The notes under the pieces are model-generated. The model searched no databases and was not told the origin of the DNA. It saw only the letters and a list, made by a program, of their open reading frames with translations. From the IMG/VR virus record IMGVR_UViG_3300035665_000249, positions 1-23,397 of that record: 23,397 nt of DNA; one strand, written 5' to 3'. Source of the stretch: a virus. Below are positions 14,430 to 22,257 of this stretch, piece after piece. Both the position numbers and the translations under genes were made by a program. The stretch's first letter is position 1. Every line of letters begins with the position of its first letter.

Positions 14430-14909
14430 TTAAATAGCGTATTGGTCTAATGTTTTGTGGCACTTTGCAATTTGCTCTTCTGCCATAAATACATATTCAG
14501 TGTGGCCATTAAAGCGGCCCAGTCTCTCTTTTGTTTGCTGATCAATCTTGGTCCCAATTGCCAGCAGCTCTTTTTCAACTTTTCCAGCTTCAGCTTTTAT
14601 CTTTGTGAATCTGATAACTTTGAAGTCAAAACCTGATTTACGCATGTTGTCATACATGCGCTGCATGATTCGACCATCAGAGGAAATACCAACTTTGTAA
14701 ACATTCTCAAAGTCAGGGTCTAAAACCTTGGCCAAATACACAATGTTTCTTTTGTGATTTGTTTCCATGTGGGCGCTAATTCGTGTCCAGATTCCAAGTT
14801 TTCTAGCAGCAGCATAAGCACCACCATACTGGTCTTGAAAATCAATTTTTCTGGTGTACTGCTTTGCCAGCTCTTCAAGTTTCTCAACAGTCCAATTTGT
14901 GTAACTCAT
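14430..14909 (-). CDS. T5orf172/GIY-YIG-like nuclease-domain protein
   Basis: The 159 residues have a DNA-binding-like N-terminus (WTVEKLEELAKQYTRKIDF...GGAYAAARKLG, about 6-40). A GIY-YIG-type core follows, with IVYLA at 56-60, YKVGIS at 71-76, Arg residues at 80 and 84, and a later KVEKELL (Glu 113) and NGHTEYVF (134-141). This matches the T5orf172/Mug113 branch, found alone or in homing-type nucleases. GGAG lies before the ATG at 14909. It is the first gene of the leftward operon, behind the operator-bearing promoter. Cleavage activity is not certain. Confidence 0.7.
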   Translation of the reverse strand: MSYTNWTVEKLEELAKQYTRKIDFQDQYGGAYAAARKLGIWTRISAHMETNHKRNIVYLAKVLDPDFENVYKVGISSDGRIMQRMYDNMRKSGFDFKVIRFTKIKAEAGKVEKELLAIGTKIDQQTKERLGRFNGHTEYVFMAEEQIAKCHKTLDQYAI

Positions 14910-15014: not shown

Positions 15015-15215
15015 ATGGAATCAATTCACACAATACGCGCAAGGGCCAAGGCTCACAAGATAACCATGTCTGCGGTGTGCGATGAGGCTGGCATCCAGCA
15101 GTCCCAGGTCAGCCGGTGGCTGAGTGGAACTGTGGAGCCTCTGTGGACATCAGTCAATCAATTGCACTTGGCGCTTGAGAAACTGATTGACAAATCACCA
15201 GTCGTTATCGATTGA
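15015..15215 (+). CDS. Cro/XRE-type HTH repressor-like protein
   Basis: A 66-residue protein. Residues about 17-38 (TMSAVCDEAGIQQSQVSRWLSG) form a clear helix-turn-helix of the Cro/XRE type. It lacks a separate oligomerisation or peptidase domain, so it is Cro-sized rather than CI-sized. It is divergent from the leftward operon, with the operator-like palindrome between. Its last 21 bases overlap the end of the opposing SSB gene. The leader has a CCGCA/TGCGG inverted repeat (14996-15012) just before the ATG and no strong ribosome site. Confidence 0.7.
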   Translation: MESIHTIRARAKAHKITMSAVCDEAGIQQSQVSRWLSGTVEPLWTSVNQLHLALEKLIDKSPVVID

Positions 15216-15764
15216 AGGTGCAGCAGCTGGCGCGCTCTTACCGGCCACCACGCCAAAGTCACTGGCAGCCGATGGTTTTGCACCACCCAGCGAATCACCC
15301 TTGGCCAAAAGCATGATGTTGTTCAAACCATACGACACGCCTTTGTTGCCTGCCTGGTCATAAGCATAAGCATTCAAAGACACGCGGCCATAGTCACCAG
15401 ACACAATATCTTGTGATCCAAGAATGTCATGGCCATGGGCATCCACTGCACCAGGCTTGTTGGTGCTTTTGGTATTGAAAAAGTAATGCCCTGCATACTC
15501 TGGCCCCAGTGGTGATCCATCGGATTTGACTTCTGTATCGCCATCACGCAAGGGATTGCGCACAGTCTTGGGAATCTTGTCCCCGAACTTGGCGGTCAAT
15601 GCGGCCTTGGCTGCCGCTTTCAATTGGTTCACAGTTTCGGTGTCTGTCTTTGGGACAAGCACTTGCGTTGAGAACTCTTCTTTCCCGTTCATTTCATTCT
15701 TACGCGCAGTCAAAGCGCTGAAGTATGAGAAACGAACTTTTCCAGTTACGACTCTAGTTGACAT
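15195..15764 (-). CDS. Single-stranded DNA-binding protein (DUF2815 / Enc34-type)
   Basis: The 189 residues match the OB-fold phage SSB group once called DUF2815, with VVTGKVRFSYFSALTARKNE near the start and a KFGDKIPKTVRNPLRDGD segment. It also has HYFFNTKSTNKPGAVD, SGDYGRVSLNAYAYDQAGNKGVSYGLNNI and a Gly/Ala/Pro-rich linker. It ends in the acidic-aromatic tail SIDNDW, which in other SSBs recruits replication partners. AAAAGGAAAAAACC lies before its ATG. It is transcribed opposite to the rest of the replication genes. Confidence 0.8.
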   Translation of the reverse strand: MSTRVVTGKVRFSYFSALTARKNEMNGKEEFSTQVLVPKTDTETVNQLKAAAKAALTAKFGDKIPKTVRNPLRDGDTEVKSDGSPLGPEYAGHYFFNTKSTNKPGAVDAHGHDILGSQDIVSGDYGRVSLNAYAYDQAGNKGVSYGLNNIMLLAKGDSLGGAKPSAASDFGVVAGKSAPAAAPSIDNDW

Positions 15765-15795
15765 GGTTTTTTCCTTTTAAGGGTTTACGAGGTTT

Positions 15796-15826
15796 AACGA
15801 TTTATCGTTTTCTGCGTTTGCAGAAA
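15796..15826. promoter_or_regulatory. Two palindromes in the SSB-helicase divergent region
   Basis: AACGATTTATCGTT (15796-15809) is a perfect palindrome with 2-base centre, and TTTCTGCGTTTGCAGAAA (15809-15826) has 7-base arms and a 4-base centre. They touch each other and end exactly at the -35 of the rightward promoter. The CAGAAA/TTTCTG half-site also occurs in the palindrome at 14941-14959, in the opposite arrangement. Regulator binding is inferred. Confidence 0.5.
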
Positions 15827-15855
15827 TTGCACTTTAGCACAAATGCAGATATGAT
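15827..15855 (+). promoter_or_regulatory. Predicted sigma-70 promoter for the replication genes
   Basis: TTGCAC (15827-15832) and TATGAT (15850-15855) are separated by 17 bases, close to consensus. The helicase ATG is at 15884 with GAGGAAA upstream. It probably drives the rightward replication block. Confidence 0.6.
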
Positions 15856-15883
15856 CGCAACAACTTAAAACGAGGAAACCGAA

Positions 15884-17110
15884 ATGCAACTATTCCCCCA
15901 TCAGCAAGAGGCCAAGCTCTTCTTGCTGTCCAGGCGCAGGGCCATACTGGCCGACCAGCCACGGGTTGGCAAGACGCTACCCACAGCAGCTGCTGCACTT
16001 GAAAACCTACCGGCCCTCATCGTTTGCCCAGCCATTGCTAAGACAGTCTGGGAGTCTGCATTTGCCAAGCTCGCGCCCAAGACTTCAGTCCATGTGGTCA
16101 ATGGAAAACGCGAGGCTTCAGAGGTAAACAGCGCAGATATCACCATCATCAACTACGATGTTTTGCAATATGCACAAACAGATTTGGACAGATATAACAC
16201 TCTAGTTTTGGATGAGTGCCACAGAATTAAGAATCCAAAGGCCCAAAGAACCAAGGCTGCCATGCTGGCCATGAAGAAAGTGGACCATGTCTATGCATTG
16301 TCTGGCACACCAATTCCAAATCGGCCCATCGAGCTGTGGCCCATTCTGCACGGCCTTGGCATTTACCGAGGCGGCTGGTTTGACTTTGCGGCCAGATACG
16401 CAAAGATGTGGAACGCGCCATGGGGCTTGGATACCAGTGGCGCGTCTAACCTAGTCGAACTCAAAGAGCTGATGAAGCCCCATGTGCTGCGCAGAAAGAA
16501 GGAAAACATCTTCAAAGACTACAAAGACCCACAAGTCAGTCTGATCACCTTTGATCTACCCAATGACAAGCGAGAGCAAGCCTTTGATGCCGATGCCTTG
16601 ATGGCCAACCCCAACGCGCTCATGGCCTTTGAGGGTTTGGCCGAGATTATGCGGGAAGCTGGGATGCGCAAGGTTAAGGCCGCCAGTGAATTCATTGATG
16701 ACTTGCTCCAGGCCGATGAGCCAGTGGTGGTATTTGCGCATCACAAGGATGTAGTGGCCGAGCTGGAGAAGCTGTTAATGGTCCACAACCCCGTGATAGT
16801 AGTGGGTGACACTACAAGGGCCAAGCGCGACCAGGCGCTCAAAGACTTTCAGTCTGGCCAGACCAAATGCATCATTGGCAACATTGCCGCCATGTCTGAA
16901 GGTGTGGACCTATCCGCTGCCGACACGATTGTCTTTGTCGAATGCACTTGGTCCACATCAGCACTGGAGCAGGCATCAAGCCGAGTGGAGAACATCAACA
17001 AGTCAGGCATTCCACCCATCATCTACATTTTGACCATCAAAGCCAGCTTGGACCACAATGTCTTGGCCAAAGTGCTAAAGAAGCTCAATGTCGTCAACCA
17101 AATTATTTAA
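15884..17110 (+). CDS. SNF2-family DNA helicase/translocase
   Basis: The 408 residues contain an ordered superfamily 2 motif set: LFPHQ near the start (Q-motif-like), a Walker A variant DQPRVGKT (24-31), LVLDECHRIKN with DECH at 110-113, SGTP (140-143), a GDTTRAKRD...F motif V region and EQASSRVENINK from 362 as motif VI. SNF2 proteins move along double-stranded DNA; phage versions are tied to replication or recombination, but the precise task is unknown. It is short but complete. It is followed by a Cas4-like nuclease, as often in phage replication modules. Confidence 0.85.
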   Translation: MQLFPHQQEAKLFLLSRRRAILADQPRVGKTLPTAAAALENLPALIVCPAIAKTVWESAFAKLAPKTSVHVVNGKREASEVNSADITIINYDVLQYAQTDLDRYNTLVLDECHRIKNPKAQRTKAAMLAMKKVDHVYALSGTPIPNRPIELWPILHGLGIYRGGWFDFAARYAKMWNAPWGLDTSGASNLVELKELMKPHVLRRKKENIFKDYKDPQVSLITFDLPNDKREQAFDADALMANPNALMAFEGLAEIMREAGMRKVKAASEFIDDLLQADEPVVVFAHHKDVVAELEKLLMVHNPVIVVGDTTRAKRDQALKDFQSGQTKCIIGNIAAMSEGVDLSAADTIVFVECTWSTSALEQASSRVENINKSGIPPIIYILTIKASLDHNVLAKVLKKLNVVNQII

Positions 17111-17124
17111 CCCTTGGAGAAACC

Positions 17125-18132
17125 ATGCAACATGAAACCCGTAAACACGCCCGACTCTCAGCATCCAGAACAGACCGCTTCATGTCTTGCCCTGGCTCAT
17201 ACAGGCTTGAATCCCTCATGCCTTACGAGCCAGCAGGCGAAGCCGCTGCCATTGGCACAGCGATTCATGAACTCTCTGAGATCATTCTGCGCGGTGGTGA
17301 GATACCAACCGGAACTGATCCGGACCATCTTTCAATGGCCCAAGGCTATGCCAACTTTGTCAATACTCTGGTCGAGAATCCGCGCAAAAAGCTGATCGAA
17401 GTCAACCTAGATGAAGGTCTGAAGTCTCTGCACCCAGCACTTGGTGGCACGGCTGATGCCATCCTGGTCGATGGGGACCATCTCCATGTCATTGATCTGA
17501 AGACTGGCCGTGTGGCTGTAGATGCCCAAGATAACAAGCAGCTGCTGACCTATGCCCTTGGTGCCATGCGCCAGCTCAAAGCGCCAAGCACCATCACTTG
17601 CACCATGCACATTTTCCAGCCGCGGGTTGGCCACAGCAAGTGGACAGTGTCGGGCAACCGCTTGAACTTGCATGGTGAGCGCTTGAAGTCGGCAGCCGAG
17701 CTGGCGCTCACAGGCGATGCACCCACAAACCCAAGCCCCGATGCCTGCCGATATTGCAAGGCCAAGACCATTTGCCCCAGTATGCGTGAGAAGGTCCAAG
17801 AGGTCGCTAGGAACGATTTTCTGCCAGACACAAGCATTACCCCTGAGATGCTAGACAACGCAGCTCTGGTGGCCGCATGGGCCGATGCAGTGCAGTCTGC
17901 TGCCAAAGACCAATTGACCAATGGCCAAGCAATCACCGGCTGGACCATGCGCGCAGGCCGTAAGACAAAATTTTGGAAAGACGAGGCGCTGGTCATGGAA
18001 GCATTCAAAGACACGCCCACAGCCTGGGAGCTGAAGTCGCCCAGTGCTGTCTTAAAACTCGGTGTCGAGGTCAGCGAAGACCTAGTCGGTGAGAAGCAGG
18101 CTGCGCCAAGTCTTGTCAAGGCGAAGGAATAG
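17125..18132 (+). CDS. Cas4/RecB-like PD-(D/E)XK nuclease with Fe-S cysteines (DUF2800-like)
   Basis: The 335 residues show RecB-family motifs: GTAIHELSE (His 48), GGTADAILVDGDHLHVIDLKTGR with Asp 111 and Asp 124-x-Lys 126, and QLLTYA from 139. Cys 22 together with Cys 208, 211 and 217 (CRYCKAKTIC) fits the iron-sulfur cluster of Cas4/AddB nucleases. It should cut or resect DNA ends for recombination. ATG 17125 is preceded by TTGGAGA; the frame stays open further upstream but that part shadows the helicase gene. Confidence 0.8.
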   Translation: MQHETRKHARLSASRTDRFMSCPGSYRLESLMPYEPAGEAAAIGTAIHELSEIILRGGEIPTGTDPDHLSMAQGYANFVNTLVENPRKKLIEVNLDEGLKSLHPALGGTADAILVDGDHLHVIDLKTGRVAVDAQDNKQLLTYALGAMRQLKAPSTITCTMHIFQPRVGHSKWTVSGNRLNLHGERLKSAAELALTGDAPTNPSPDACRYCKAKTICPSMREKVQEVARNDFLPDTSITPEMLDNAALVAAWADAVQSAAKDQLTNGQAITGWTMRAGRKTKFWKDEALVMEAFKDTPTAWELKSPSAVLKLGVEVSEDLVGEKQAAPSLVKAKE

Positions 18133-18187: not shown

Positions 18188-18242
18188 AAAGGTCAACTCT
18201 CATGGCAACTTACAAATGAAACCCCAACTTAAAGGAATTTCA

Positions 18243-20372
18243 GTGTCAACTATAACTGAAACACCCCTGCCAGATACATTCAGCCAGTCCCAGTCTGTCG
18301 CCTGCAAAATAGGCGCTGTGGCCCCCGATGCGGTGTTCTGCACCTTTGCCTTGCAAGGCTCCAAGAAAATCCCTTACAAGCGATCTGGCCAAGGTGTGGC
18401 ACGGGATACAGACCCAAGCGATCTCTACAACGCTGAAGATGTCTGGACCATGGAGCAAGCGCCTCATGGCCAATATCTTGGCCTAGTCCAGCAGCGCCCT
18501 ATCATCAGCGCATCAGGAAACTATTTGGTTTGCCTTGATGTGGACATGAAGCACGCTAGTGGCCCCACCAACGTGGCCATCCAGCGCATGGCCAAGTATG
18601 TGAAACAAAAGCAGATGCTGACCGAGGTTTCTGTCTCAGGCCGTGGCCGTCATGTTTTCTTATGGGTCCAACCACCCAAAGAATCTGACCTGGTGCTGCC
18701 GAAGTACAAGCTGGGCGGTGGCCAAGAGCTTGAAGTCTTTGGCCTGCCAAACAGTGCAGGCAAGTCAGTCCTACTCAGTGGCAATGCTGTGGTCGGTGAA
18801 TTCCAAGAGGCAATCGATCTTTATGCCTTGCTCCAAGAGTGGGGGATCATCGAGCAGCACCAGTTGCAAGAGCCAAAGCCTGCACCACCCTCACAGTCAT
18901 TTGACTTCACCCAATTAGGGTCAAGGCTGGATGACAGCGATCTTGATCGTGCCATCAAGGCTTTGCACCATATTTCCCCAGACTGTGACTATGACCAGTG
19001 GATTGAACTGGGCCAAGCGCTGCACACAGAATTTGGAGAGGCGGGATTAGGCCCATGGATGACATGGTCCATGGCCGGCAACAAGTTTGCAGGCACAAAA
19101 GACATTGAAGTCCACTGGAAGAGCTTTCACCAGGGCAAAGGTGTTGGCATTGGCACACTGTTCAAGCACGCCAAAGACTGTGGGTGGGAAGCTCCAACTA
19201 AGCAGGCCGAGCGCAAATCAGCGGTGGAAGACTTTGCCGCGGTGATCAATGCGCCAGTCATAGAAGACGCACCAGACCCATCATGGCCAGAACTGACGCT
19301 AGACCTGACCCACCTCAACCCCATCGATTACCTGATCGAAGGTTTCATGGCCCATAGCTTTTTCATCTTGGCCGGTCAGCCTGGCGTGGGAAAGACCACA
19401 GCAGTGCTGTCCATGTGCATGGTCATGGCAGGGTTTAAAGTTGATGGCTGCGAGATTCACGCAAAGAAAAAACGCAAGTCAATCATCGTGACTGAAGATA
19501 GTGACCAGATAATCCGAACATTATTCGCATATTCAAAGCATTACAAGATAAATAATCTAAATGACTGGTTTGTGGTTATTGATGCCAGAAGGTCTAATGT
19601 CAAGGATTTACTCAGACTTGCACATAATATTGAGCGCCATACAGTTAATGGCATTAAGCCATTATTAGTCCTAGACACGGCCAATGCGACTATGGACATT
19701 GACAACGAGAATGACAACTCTGAAGTTGGAGCCTACATTGCCGCCATCAAGCAGACCATCTTCATTCAACAAAAAGCGCCAGTCTGCATCCTGACCCATA
19801 CCAACAAAACTATTAGTCGACAAGACTCCGATGCCATGGCCCGTGGTGCATCAGCATTCACAGGCGATGCAACCCTGACTGGCGTGCTTTTCATGGATGA
19901 GGATAACCAGCGCTACCTAAAACTCACAAAGACGCGCTATGAGCCTCAGTTCAGAGAGATCAAGTTTGACAGCATCACATTCCCAGAAATAGTTATCACC
20001 CCAGCTGGTGATCTGCAAGAGATTATTTGCAGGGTGGCTATTCCAGCCATGTCGTCAGAACAAGACCGGATGGCCGCCAAGCAGTCCCAGCAAGACACCG
20101 CCAAAGAGCAGCGCATCCAAGACAAGTGCGATGAGGTCTGCAACCATGTCCAAGCCATCATCAATGACAAAGGCAGCGTCATTATGCGAAGAGGACCAGG
20201 CAGGCCAGTTGTGCCAAAAGAACTTCAAAACGCCTATCAACTGGATTGGACTGAAATCTTCTCAACTGTAAAAGGCTCAGATGCAGGCTATATCCGCAAG
20301 CATATTGGCACGGCCATCTTCACCAGATTCGCACCAAACGAGCCATTGTCTGGCTGGGTGAGGTTGATGTGA
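18243..20372 (+). CDS. PrimPol-PriCT-helicase replication protein
   Basis: Start GTG 18243 is preferred because AAAGGA lies 6 bases upstream; an in-frame ATG at 18216 has no ribosome site. Counted from that ATG, three domains appear: a primase-polymerase-like part (CLDVDMK with Asp 108 and 110, SGRGRHVFLWV from 141), a PriCT-2-like part (about 240-325), and a RecA/RepA-type ATPase. The ATPase has GQPGVGKTT at 387-395, VTEDSD at 425-430 and Walker B LLVLDT at 483-488. It should prime and unwind DNA at the origin. The C-terminus ends in a region that may bind DNA. The gene ends 4 bases before a block of iteron-like repeats, a layout typical of a replication initiator and its origin. A stretch at about 19500-19680 is AT-richer than its flanks. 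Confidence 0.8.
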   Translation: MSTITETPLPDTFSQSQSVACKIGAVAPDAVFCTFALQGSKKIPYKRSGQGVARDTDPSDLYNAEDVWTMEQAPHGQYLGLVQQRPIISASGNYLVCLDVDMKHASGPTNVAIQRMAKYVKQKQMLTEVSVSGRGRHVFLWVQPPKESDLVLPKYKLGGGQELEVFGLPNSAGKSVLLSGNAVVGEFQEAIDLYALLQEWGIIEQHQLQEPKPAPPSQSFDFTQLGSRLDDSDLDRAIKALHHISPDCDYDQWIELGQALHTEFGEAGLGPWMTWSMAGNKFAGTKDIEVHWKSFHQGKGVGIGTLFKHAKDCGWEAPTKQAERKSAVEDFAAVINAPVIEDAPDPSWPELTLDLTHLNPIDYLIEGFMAHSFFILAGQPGVGKTTAVLSMCMVMAGFKVDGCEIHAKKKRKSIIVTEDSDQIIRTLFAYSKHYKINNLNDWFVVIDARRSNVKDLLRLAHNIERHTVNGIKPLLVLDTANATMDIDNENDNSEVGAYIAAIKQTIFIQQKAPVCILTHTNKTISRQDSDAMARGASAFTGDATLTGVLFMDEDNQRYLKLTKTRYEPQFREIKFDSITFPEIVITPAGDLQEIICRVAIPAMSSEQDRMAAKQSQQDTAKEQRIQDKCDEVCNHVQAIINDKGSVIMRRGPGRPVVPKELQNAYQLDWTEIFSTVKGSDAGYIRKHIGTAIFTRFAPNEPLSGWVRLM

Positions 20373-20612
20373 CCAGTCTAATGCGGAAAGGCGGAACTAA
20401 TACGGAACTAATGCGGAATTCCGTATTAGACAATGGCAGGGATTGTTGGATAAGTGGGGTCATTAGACCCACTTATCCACAGACCAGTCTCGGCTTGGAA
20501 GGTACTTCAGTTTCTAATGCGGAAAGGCGGAAAATTCCTTAAGGGCTTTCCGTATTAGAAACGAGCATTTGATGGTCCAACACAAAGGAAAGTTATGCAC
20601 AGGTTATCCACA
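20373..20612. other. Origin-like region: iteron motifs and DnaA boxes
   Basis: A 12-base motif, (T/A)CTAAT(G/A)CGGAA, occurs at 20377-20388, 20396-20407, 20407-20418 and 20513-20524 (+) and at 20419-20430 and 20548-20559 (-). A 20-base direct repeat starts at 20377 and at 20513. Copies at 20407-20430 form a near-palindrome centred on GAATTC. TTTCTAATGCGGAAAG (20511-20526) is matched at 15 of 16 bases by the inverted copy 20546-20561. A 12-base perfect inverted repeat spans 20447-20479. DnaA boxes TTATCCACA (20473-20481, 20604-20612) and TTATGCACA (20593-20601) are perfect. No gene of usual size lies here. Origin function is inferred. Confidence 0.65.
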
Positions 20613-20915
20613 AATTTAGATTTCATCGAAGATGAGCGCGTTTTCTGCCATCAATGCGCTAATGCGGAAATGGTCGAGCAGCGCCAGTCGATGCCATCAG
20701 AGCAGATGGAAAGACACCGAAAGGTTAACGCCAAACCATTGCAGTGGATGTTTGACCAAGCAAAGGTCAAAGGTGGATGGGCAACAGTCACATGGTCCGA
20801 ACATCAGTGCAGCCAAACTGGACTGGCTGCATTCCCGACCGACGTTAAGCACCGATGCCACCTATTCCAGACCAAACCCTCGGCTGTAAAATCCGAAGAA
20901 TGGTGGTTGACTTAA
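20595..20915 (+). CDS. Cys-rich, possibly zinc-binding small protein
   Basis: The 106 residues include Cys 18, 21, 72 and 88 plus nearby His, a C-x2-C...C-x15-C arrangement that could bind zinc. No family is recognised. AAAGGAAA precedes ATG 20595. Two DnaA boxes cover the start and first codons (20593-20601 and 20604-20612), and a further copy of the iteron-like motif is inside the gene at 20659-20669. Expression may thus be linked to origin occupancy. It overlaps the next gene if that starts at 20900. Confidence 0.55.
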   Translation: MHRLSTNLDFIEDERVFCHQCANAEMVEQRQSMPSEQMERHRKVNAKPLQWMFDQAKVKGGWATVTWSEHQCSQTGLAAFPTDVKHRCHLFQTKPSAVKSEEWWLT

Positions 20916-21779: not shown

Positions 21780-21827
21780 ATGAATACCGAAGCATTCAGT
21801 CACTTTATACAACGACCATTATGTTAA
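21780..21827 (+). pseudogene. Possible vestigial start of TerL
   Basis: A 15-codon frame starts on the base after the TerS stop. Its product, MNTEAFSHFIQRPLC, aligns position by position with the TerL start MKENVFSQWVERYQP: M, F, S and R identical and A/V, H/Q, F/W, I/V, Q/E conservative. The two DNAs share TTCAGTCA at the same offset from ATG. It could be a duplicated or left-behind 5' end, or chance. Confidence 0.3.
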
Positions 21828-22034
21828 GTGGATAAGTCGTTATCCACAGAATTAAGTGCATCAAAGTATTACAAGCCTACTTATGCACAGGAATCTGTGG
21901 ATAAAGTTGGCCAAAATCTGGGGACAAGTCGGTAGTGGCCAGCTGGCGGTCGGTGGCCGTGACCCCCCCGTGGCCGCTTTGGCGGGGGCGACTGTGGCGG
22001 CACTAAACACCTACAAAAAAAATTTTTAAAAAAA
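21827..22034. other. Second DnaA-box cluster with AT-rich tract
   Basis: The 313 bases between the TerS stop and the gene at 22093 hold no gene of usual size. GTGGATAA/TTATCCAC is an inverted repeat (21828-21847) that includes DnaA box TTATCCACA (21840-21848). TTATGCACA (21881-21889) and its inverse TGTGGATAA (21896-21904) follow. GTGGCC recurs at 21935, 21953 and 21970, and a GC hairpin spans 21965-21988. An A8-T5-A7 tract (22015-22034) could serve as the unwinding element. Origin function is inferred. Confidence 0.55.
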
Positions 22035-22092
22035 GTAACAACTAAGTCAAATTGTGCAAAAATGTCAACTCCACAAACAACGGAGCTAAACC

Positions 22093-22257
22093 ATGAAAAC
22101 GAAGCAGGCAACAATCATCATCAAAGACCAGGAGTGGATTGTGTTAGACACTGATGAGGCTCAAGACAAGAAAGTGTTCTGCAAGCTAATGAGCTTGGAT
22201 GGGACAATTGTCTGGCACACTTGGGTGGACATTAACCAGATCGTGGGGATAATATGA
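22093..22257 (+). CDS. Hypothetical 54-residue protein
   Basis: This starts at ATG 22093 with GGAG 8 bases upstream and ends in an ATGA overlap with the next gene. The product (MKTKQATIIIKDQEWIVLDTDEAQ...) alternates strand-like and charged stretches and has no known motif. It opens a run of four overlapping small genes between TerS and TerL. Confidence 0.55.
   Translation: MKTKQATIIIKDQEWIVLDTDEAQDKKVFCKLMSLDGTIVWHTWVDINQIVGII

Follow-up and report, generated by a model that had tools for sequence, protein, structure and literature searches.

The 23,397-nucleotide stretch of viral DNA analyzed here (the window) very probably contains, at 20373–20670, the replication origin of a ~36-kb tailed phage, which sequence comparison suggests is recognized by the product of the gene ending at its edge. 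The region holds an array of 11-bp repeats (iterons) that keeps its geometry across relatives, changes its copies in concert, is tracked exclusively by the C-terminal domain of the adjacent primase-helicase and has been exchanged in nature together with that domain. The features discussed below are as follows, with offsets counted from the first iteron.

18216–20372, plus strand: candidate initiator gene, 718 aa (PrimPol-like primase; PriCT_2; RecA-type helicase, AAA_25 and RepA/DnaB-like; C-terminal domain)
20061–20588, plus strand: exchanged cassette of ~530 bp (C-terminal domain and array), delimited in the natural chimeras L032, L034 and L036 by sliding identity to relatives of classes A and B
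20070–20369, plus strand: C-terminal domain (codons 619–718), putatively iteron-binding, which tracks iteron class
20378–20388, plus strand: iteron 1, CTAATGCGGAA, offset 0
20386–20396, plus strand: half-iteron, GAAAGGCGGAA, offset 8, 8 bp past iteron 1; a full overlapping copy in classes B and C
20397–20407, plus strand: iteron 2, CTAATACGGAA, offset 19
20408–20418, plus strand: iteron 3, CTAATGCGGAA, offset 30
20419–20429, minus strand: iteron 4, inverted, CTAATACGGAA, offset 41
20447–20479, no strand assigned: hairpin with arms TGGATAAGTGGG/CCCACTTATCCA, the DnaA box at 20473 lying in its 3′ arm; compensatory changes in relatives
20473–20481, plus strand: DnaA box, TTATCCACA, offset +95
20514–20524, plus strand: iteron 5, CTAATGCGGAA, offset 136
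20522–20532, plus strand: second half-iteron, GAAAGGCGGAA, offset 144, 8 bp past iteron 5
20548–20558, minus strand: iteron 6, inverted, offset 170, forming a 17-bp inverted repeat with iteron 5
20593–20601, plus strand: DnaA box, TTATGCACA, overlapping the ATG of the downstream ORF
20595–20915, plus strand: downstream ORF, 106 aa, no family match, holding iteron 7
20604–20612, plus strand: DnaA box, TTATCCACA, 11 bp past the box at 20593
20659–20669, plus strand: iteron 7, offset 281, in frame within the 106-aa ORF
21840–21904, no strand assigned: second DnaA cluster (TTATCCACA at 21840, plus; TTATGCACA at 21881, plus; TTATCCACA at 21896, minus) with a 22-nt inverted repeat
22015–22035, no strand assigned: conserved AAAAAAAATTTTTAAAAAAA tract after the second DnaA cluster, a possible unwinding element

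Exact copies of CTAATRCGGAA number seven in the window, against 0.02 ± 0.14 in shuffled versions, and none of 100 shuffles reached seven; a search allowing up to two mismatches returned no one-mismatch copy anywhere in the window. Iterons 1–6 span 182 bp (20377–20558) on the 3′ side of the primase-helicase gene, beginning 6 bp past its stop codon. Together with the two half-iterons and the hairpin, they occupy the noncoding gap between the end of that gene (20372) and the start of the next ORF (20595). The initial annotation of this DNA had described seven copies, six of them within about 185 bases, and we recovered all of them at the same coordinates. Its further descriptions proved accurate as well: the copies at 20397 and 20408 abut at 11 bp, those at 20419 and 20548 are inverted on the minus strand, and the 20-base direct repeat linking 20377 and 20513 is exact. 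Several direct repeats in helical phase adjoin the candidate initiator gene, a feature of iteron-type origins. That annotation did not mention the half-iterons, the hairpin, the second DnaA cluster or the way the repeat varies in concert between phages.

Strict TTATSCACA boxes occur six times in the window (0.5 expected), three at the array and three at 21840–21904. The earlier count of three perfect DnaA boxes at the array holds for TTATCCACA at 20473 and 20604, but the box at 20593, TTATGCACA, fits TTWTNCACA and differs from the canonical TTATCCACA; the boxes at 20593 and 20604 do lie exactly 11 bases apart, as had been noted. In relatives, the boxes, another feature of iteron-type origins, are fixed at +95, at +215 or +227, and at +226 or +238 from the first iteron. 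The single strand folds much better than its shuffles (z of −7.8), and 25 distinct sequences preserve the hairpin, several of its pairs showing compensatory changes on both sides, as counted from single-sequence folds rather than from a fitted alignment. By analogy, this hairpin may be a priming site like the ssi sites of RSF1010. No strongly AT-rich unwinding element adjoins the iterons, where AT content peaks at 0.64 (20575–20624); the nearest strong A/T tract is at 22015–22035, beside the second DnaA cluster. Neither a tRNA nor an Rfam family was found in the window.

The product of the gene preceding the array matches PriCT_2 (3e-18) and AAA_25 (1e-16) in Pfam as well as primase/polymerase families in PHROG. 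Invariant residues include D108/D110, G144-R-H146, E173 and the Walker A motif G387QPGxGKT. Pfam returned only PriCT_2 and AAA-type helicase families for this protein and no classical Rep family such as Rep_3; the helicase match is of the AAA_25/DnaB_C type, with no SF3 helicase, and searches of Pfam and PHROG families gave no Toprim match. Profile matches of the full protein to pentatricopeptide proteins in the PDB involve one 36-residue stretch and were judged spurious.

An AlphaFold2 model of the C-terminal domain, built from 36 sequences, has a pLDDT of 87 and consists of a long helix followed by strands flanking two helices, an arrangement compatible with a helix–turn–helix. The full-length model is mostly of low confidence and was used only for the last ~80 residues. 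The domain has no match in Pfam, among PDB sequences or, at significance, among PDB folds searched with Foldseek, so that its DNA-binding role is putative, and we dropped an assignment as a winged helix for want of a Foldseek match. Its sole strong fold match in a viral library is a 715-aa uncultured-phage protein, 50% identical over the aligned part. Within our loci and the phage collection, the domain was not found outside primase-helicases, and plasmid matches of the whole protein stop short of it.

Searching IMG/VR with the primase-helicase gave 80 loci of high similarity. The array is kept at near-fixed spacing in ~80 relatives, with direct copies at offsets 0, 19 and 30, an inverted copy at 41, a direct copy at 136/137 and an inverted copy at 170/171 in nearly all clade-1 relatives containing the region. 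The clade-1 offsets recur with one-base or 11/19-bp shifts. Iteron 7 often lies at offset 281–295, inside the ORF, and several relatives lack it or carry it with mismatches. At 8 and 144/145, most class B and C relatives have complete copies, with an overlap of 3 bp, in place of the half-copies. A few arrays have one unit more or one unit fewer (for example L042–L044 and L045); among the longer ones, L180 has gained an 11-bp unit and L042–L044 a 19-bp double unit, which suggests that arrays grow in whole units. The initial annotation had called for related phages to be searched for the motif at the same position, and motifs unconserved in relatives would have spoken against it. That search showed the opposite, with positions kept in ~80 relatives and a repeat that covaries with a primase-helicase domain.

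The repeats fall into three classes: CTAATRCGGAA (A, 33 loci), GTAATGCGGTA (B, 9 loci) and GTAAASCGGTA (C, 35 loci). Copies within one phage change together across the array, and iteron 7 usually changes with the class, altering the encoded residues (CANAE, CSNAV, CSKAV). Such concerted change on a fixed geometry is expected if one shared binding protein constrains all copies. Phages of classes A, B and C all occur in a single metagenome, 3300031857 (L028, L056 and L075). Among more remote relatives, MW202879.1 (primase-helicase 52% identical over 93% of the query) and its IMG/VR kin carry TCGRRGATACC-like repeats at the same site, and in many of these kin the array begins 95–97 bp before a DnaA box. 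For several members of clade 2, the geometry score is not above that of shuffles. L223 (58% identity) has CTAATMCGGTT-like repeats in the same frame. This locus lies on a 9.9-kb contig in an Acidimicrobium MAG and the sole genome match; it is possibly misbinned and possibly a hint at the host. L129 holds two repeat copies only. We rejected as relatives 17 loci that fitted a two-motif pattern only through CTAATACGGAA copies 30 or 36 bp apart (L088, L092, L093, L095, L099, L102, L106, L107, L111, L113, L116, L119, L122, L124, L125, L132 and L135); six of them (L088, L092, L106, L111, L116 and L122) are repetitive, apparently coding tracts.

Which part of which protein follows the repeat class was assessed from the nearest neighbor of each sequence, with neighbors of 95% or higher overall identity left out (n = 77). 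This neighbor had the same class for 17 of 77 primase modules and 27 of 77 PriCT_2 modules, for 64 of 77 helicase modules (0 of 8 in class B) and for 77 of 77 modules comprising residues 619–718. The last module is also the only one whose lowest within-class identity (0.82) exceeds its highest between-class identity (0.78). The HTH, SSB, SNF2, exonuclease, VRR and terminase proteins carry no class signal.

Natural chimeras show the same association. L032, L033, L034, L036 and L078 encode a class A protein up to residue 618 joined to a class B C terminus, and their repeats are of class B; residues 1–618 are 85–100% identical to class A per 40-residue block, mostly 90–100%. In L032, L034 and L036, the last block before the exchange is 97–100% class A, and the sequence inside it is 85–100% class B. 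Class A sequence resumes after the exchange in L034, where the seventh iteron is still of class A. From this pattern, the C-terminal domain is the probable iteron-binding domain. Because its codons adjoin the array, linkage alone could make the two travel together, so linkage and function cannot be fully separated, and the number of independent exchange events behind the clean class separation may be small.

We propose that the 11-bp iterons, which would be arranged on one helical face, are bound by the C-terminal ~100 residues of the primase-helicase, and that host DnaA binds the fixed boxes and aids opening of the DNA. The tethered RecA-type helicase domain would thereby be placed on the DNA, and priming by the primase domain would follow, perhaps on the hairpin once it is exposed. 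Synthesis may then pass to the host replisome, as relatives yielded no DNA polymerase of family A or B. We infer binding, origin firing, the order of these events, the part played by the hairpin and the use of a host polymerase. PolA, PolB and integrase were not found in five relatives, whose records may be incomplete; their lack is consistent with host-dependent synthesis and a lytic life. In all 10 of the relatives of 35–39 kb examined, the minimum of the detrended circular GC skew precedes the first iteron by 0–430 bp; this lends slight support to the origin, since per-gene GC3 skew shows no clean switch at the array.

A second cluster of DnaA boxes (21827–22061) lies 1.2 kb downstream of the array, between the genes for the small and large terminase subunits, and could serve unwinding, packaging or regulation. 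Strands might open there, at the A/T tract, with the iteron array acting as an auxiliary initiator site 1.2 kb away through looping; the separated ori and crr of P4 offer a comparable layout. The cluster is strongly conserved regardless of iteron class (over 21780–22095, which holds three or four DnaA boxes along with a GC-rich block and the A/T tract), it includes an inverted repeat and the AAAAAAAATTTTTT tract, and GC3 skew becomes strongly positive only past ~22.4 kb. However, it lacks iterons, its place between the terminase subunit genes makes a packaging site equally likely, and it is known from relatives outside clade 2. We regard opening at this cluster as unlikely.

As an operator through which the primase-helicase or another protein represses or activates downstream ORF–VRR–terS transcription, the array would be suitably placed between two co-oriented genes, and initiators often autoregulate, as in iteron plasmids. 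Yet it lies downstream of the initiator gene, the plus strand of 20373–20600 has no promoter-like match, and at least seven sites over 290 bp exceed the needs of a simple operator, which would also leave the DnaA boxes and hairpin unexplained; we judge such a role improbable. The iterons might instead be bound by another phage protein, such as the 66-aa protein encoded at 15015–15215, which matches Cro/C1-type HTH domains, or the product of the 106-aa ORF that adjoins the array. Identity of the HTH protein is nearly the same within as between classes (0.883 versus 0.880), and that of the 106-aa product differs little (0.832 versus 0.788, with between-class pairs up to 0.94), so a different binder appears very improbable. 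A packaging or partition site has in its favor a small-terminase gene two genes away, but identity of that terminase subunit does not follow class (0.739 within versus 0.731 between) and the DnaA boxes would again have no explanation, which makes this the sort of role we hardly expect. An origin read by the C-terminal domain of the primase-helicase remains our preferred interpretation.

The initial annotation had proposed a plasmid-type iteron origin in a phage. Conserved positions and covariation with the adjacent primase-helicase domain support the origin, whereas its nearest functional analogs are P4 alpha, pRN1 ORF904 and the PLE RepA–ori pair rather than a classical Rep/RepE plasmid. The helicase of P4 alpha is of the SF3 type, and the one described here matches AAA_25/RepA. 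P4 alpha has a Toprim primase, in contrast to the PrimPol-like primase with PriCT_2 of the phage protein; moreover, DnaA boxes are fixed parts of the present origin, and the C-terminal domain has no fold match. The likeness lies in joining primase, helicase and C-terminal domain in one protein, with DNA binding presumed for ours; in P4 alpha, an origin-binding C-terminal domain acts on origin repeats (PMC4234260). ORF904 of pRN1 likewise combines a PrimPol, a helicase and a C-terminal DNA-binding domain (binding again presumed here), and in both systems the origin is directly downstream of the gene and a hairpin is present. In pRN1, whose host is an archaeon, there is a stem-loop but no iterons, and the helicase is of the SF3 type (PMC4234260). 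A C-terminal winged helix would be expected of an ORF904-like initiator; our confident model has two helices flanked by strands, without a significant PDB match. By analogy, the functional logic would equal that of P4 alpha and ORF904; we do not claim membership in either group because the protein lacks an SF3 helicase.

In the PLE satellites of Vibrio cholerae, the RepA_N domain covaries with ori, and the two function only in cognate combination, as proven experimentally (PMC8263062). The phages described here resemble them in that a DNA-binding domain, by our reading, covaries with an iteron origin, in contrast to the rest of the protein, and in natural module swapping. PLE RepA is a separate initiator in a satellite, whereas the putative specificity domain here forms the C-terminal part of a primase-helicase. 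One PLE origin type is the target of an origin-directed nuclease encoded by a phage (PMC8263062), and such a nuclease is, by analogy, one possible reason for the change of specificity here. RSF1010 uses RepA, RepB′ and RepC, with a RepA-type helicase, a dedicated primase, iterons and ssi hairpins at the origin (PMC4234260). The phage region shares helicase type, primase, iterons and hairpin but has one protein in place of three, and RepC has no counterpart outside the C-terminal domain. The lambdoid O protein and ori-lambda provide a phage initiator that binds a phage iteron origin (PMC7466680); in lambda, the O gene itself contains the iterons, an AT-rich region flanks them, and the O protein has neither helicase nor primase.

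Taken further, a single-polypeptide initiator of widespread uncultured phages, in which a PrimPol primase and a RecA-type helicase are joined to a DNA-binding domain of undescribed type, would change its origin specificity by swapping a ~530-bp cassette of domain and iterons, and coexisting phages could so avoid cross-recognition, satellite hijack or origin-directed nucleases; we hold this proposal to be evenly balanced between right and wrong. To our knowledge, few phage origins are known outside model systems. This natural test bed, with its swapped domains and three or more simple repeat classes on an unchanging scaffold, makes it possible to test directly how an initiator recognizes its origin and why origin specificity diversifies. 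No structural relative of the C-terminal domain could be detected in the PDB, and its structure with DNA would be new. In this architecture, one phage protein would act as primase and helicase and also recognize the origin, probably in partnership with host DnaA.

Several observations concern the wider genome. Genes for an Enc34-type SSB, an SNF2-like helicase and a PD-(D/E)XK exonuclease (DUF2800) lie upstream of the primase-helicase gene at 15195–18132, a probable replication/recombination block. A T5orf172-domain protein (14430–14909, minus strand) is present in only 3 of 80 relatives; the origin-directed nuclease Odn of ICP1 fuses a T5orf172-type nuclease domain to a RepA_N-like domain, a fusion not seen here. 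The 106-aa protein has several Cys/His residues; in some relatives a different N-terminal part has taken the place of the original one and iteron 7 is gone. Two relatives (G003 and G004) have direct terminal repeats of 97 and 91 bases, and the array lies at widely differing distances from the contig ends of relatives, a pattern that circular or permuted genomes would give.
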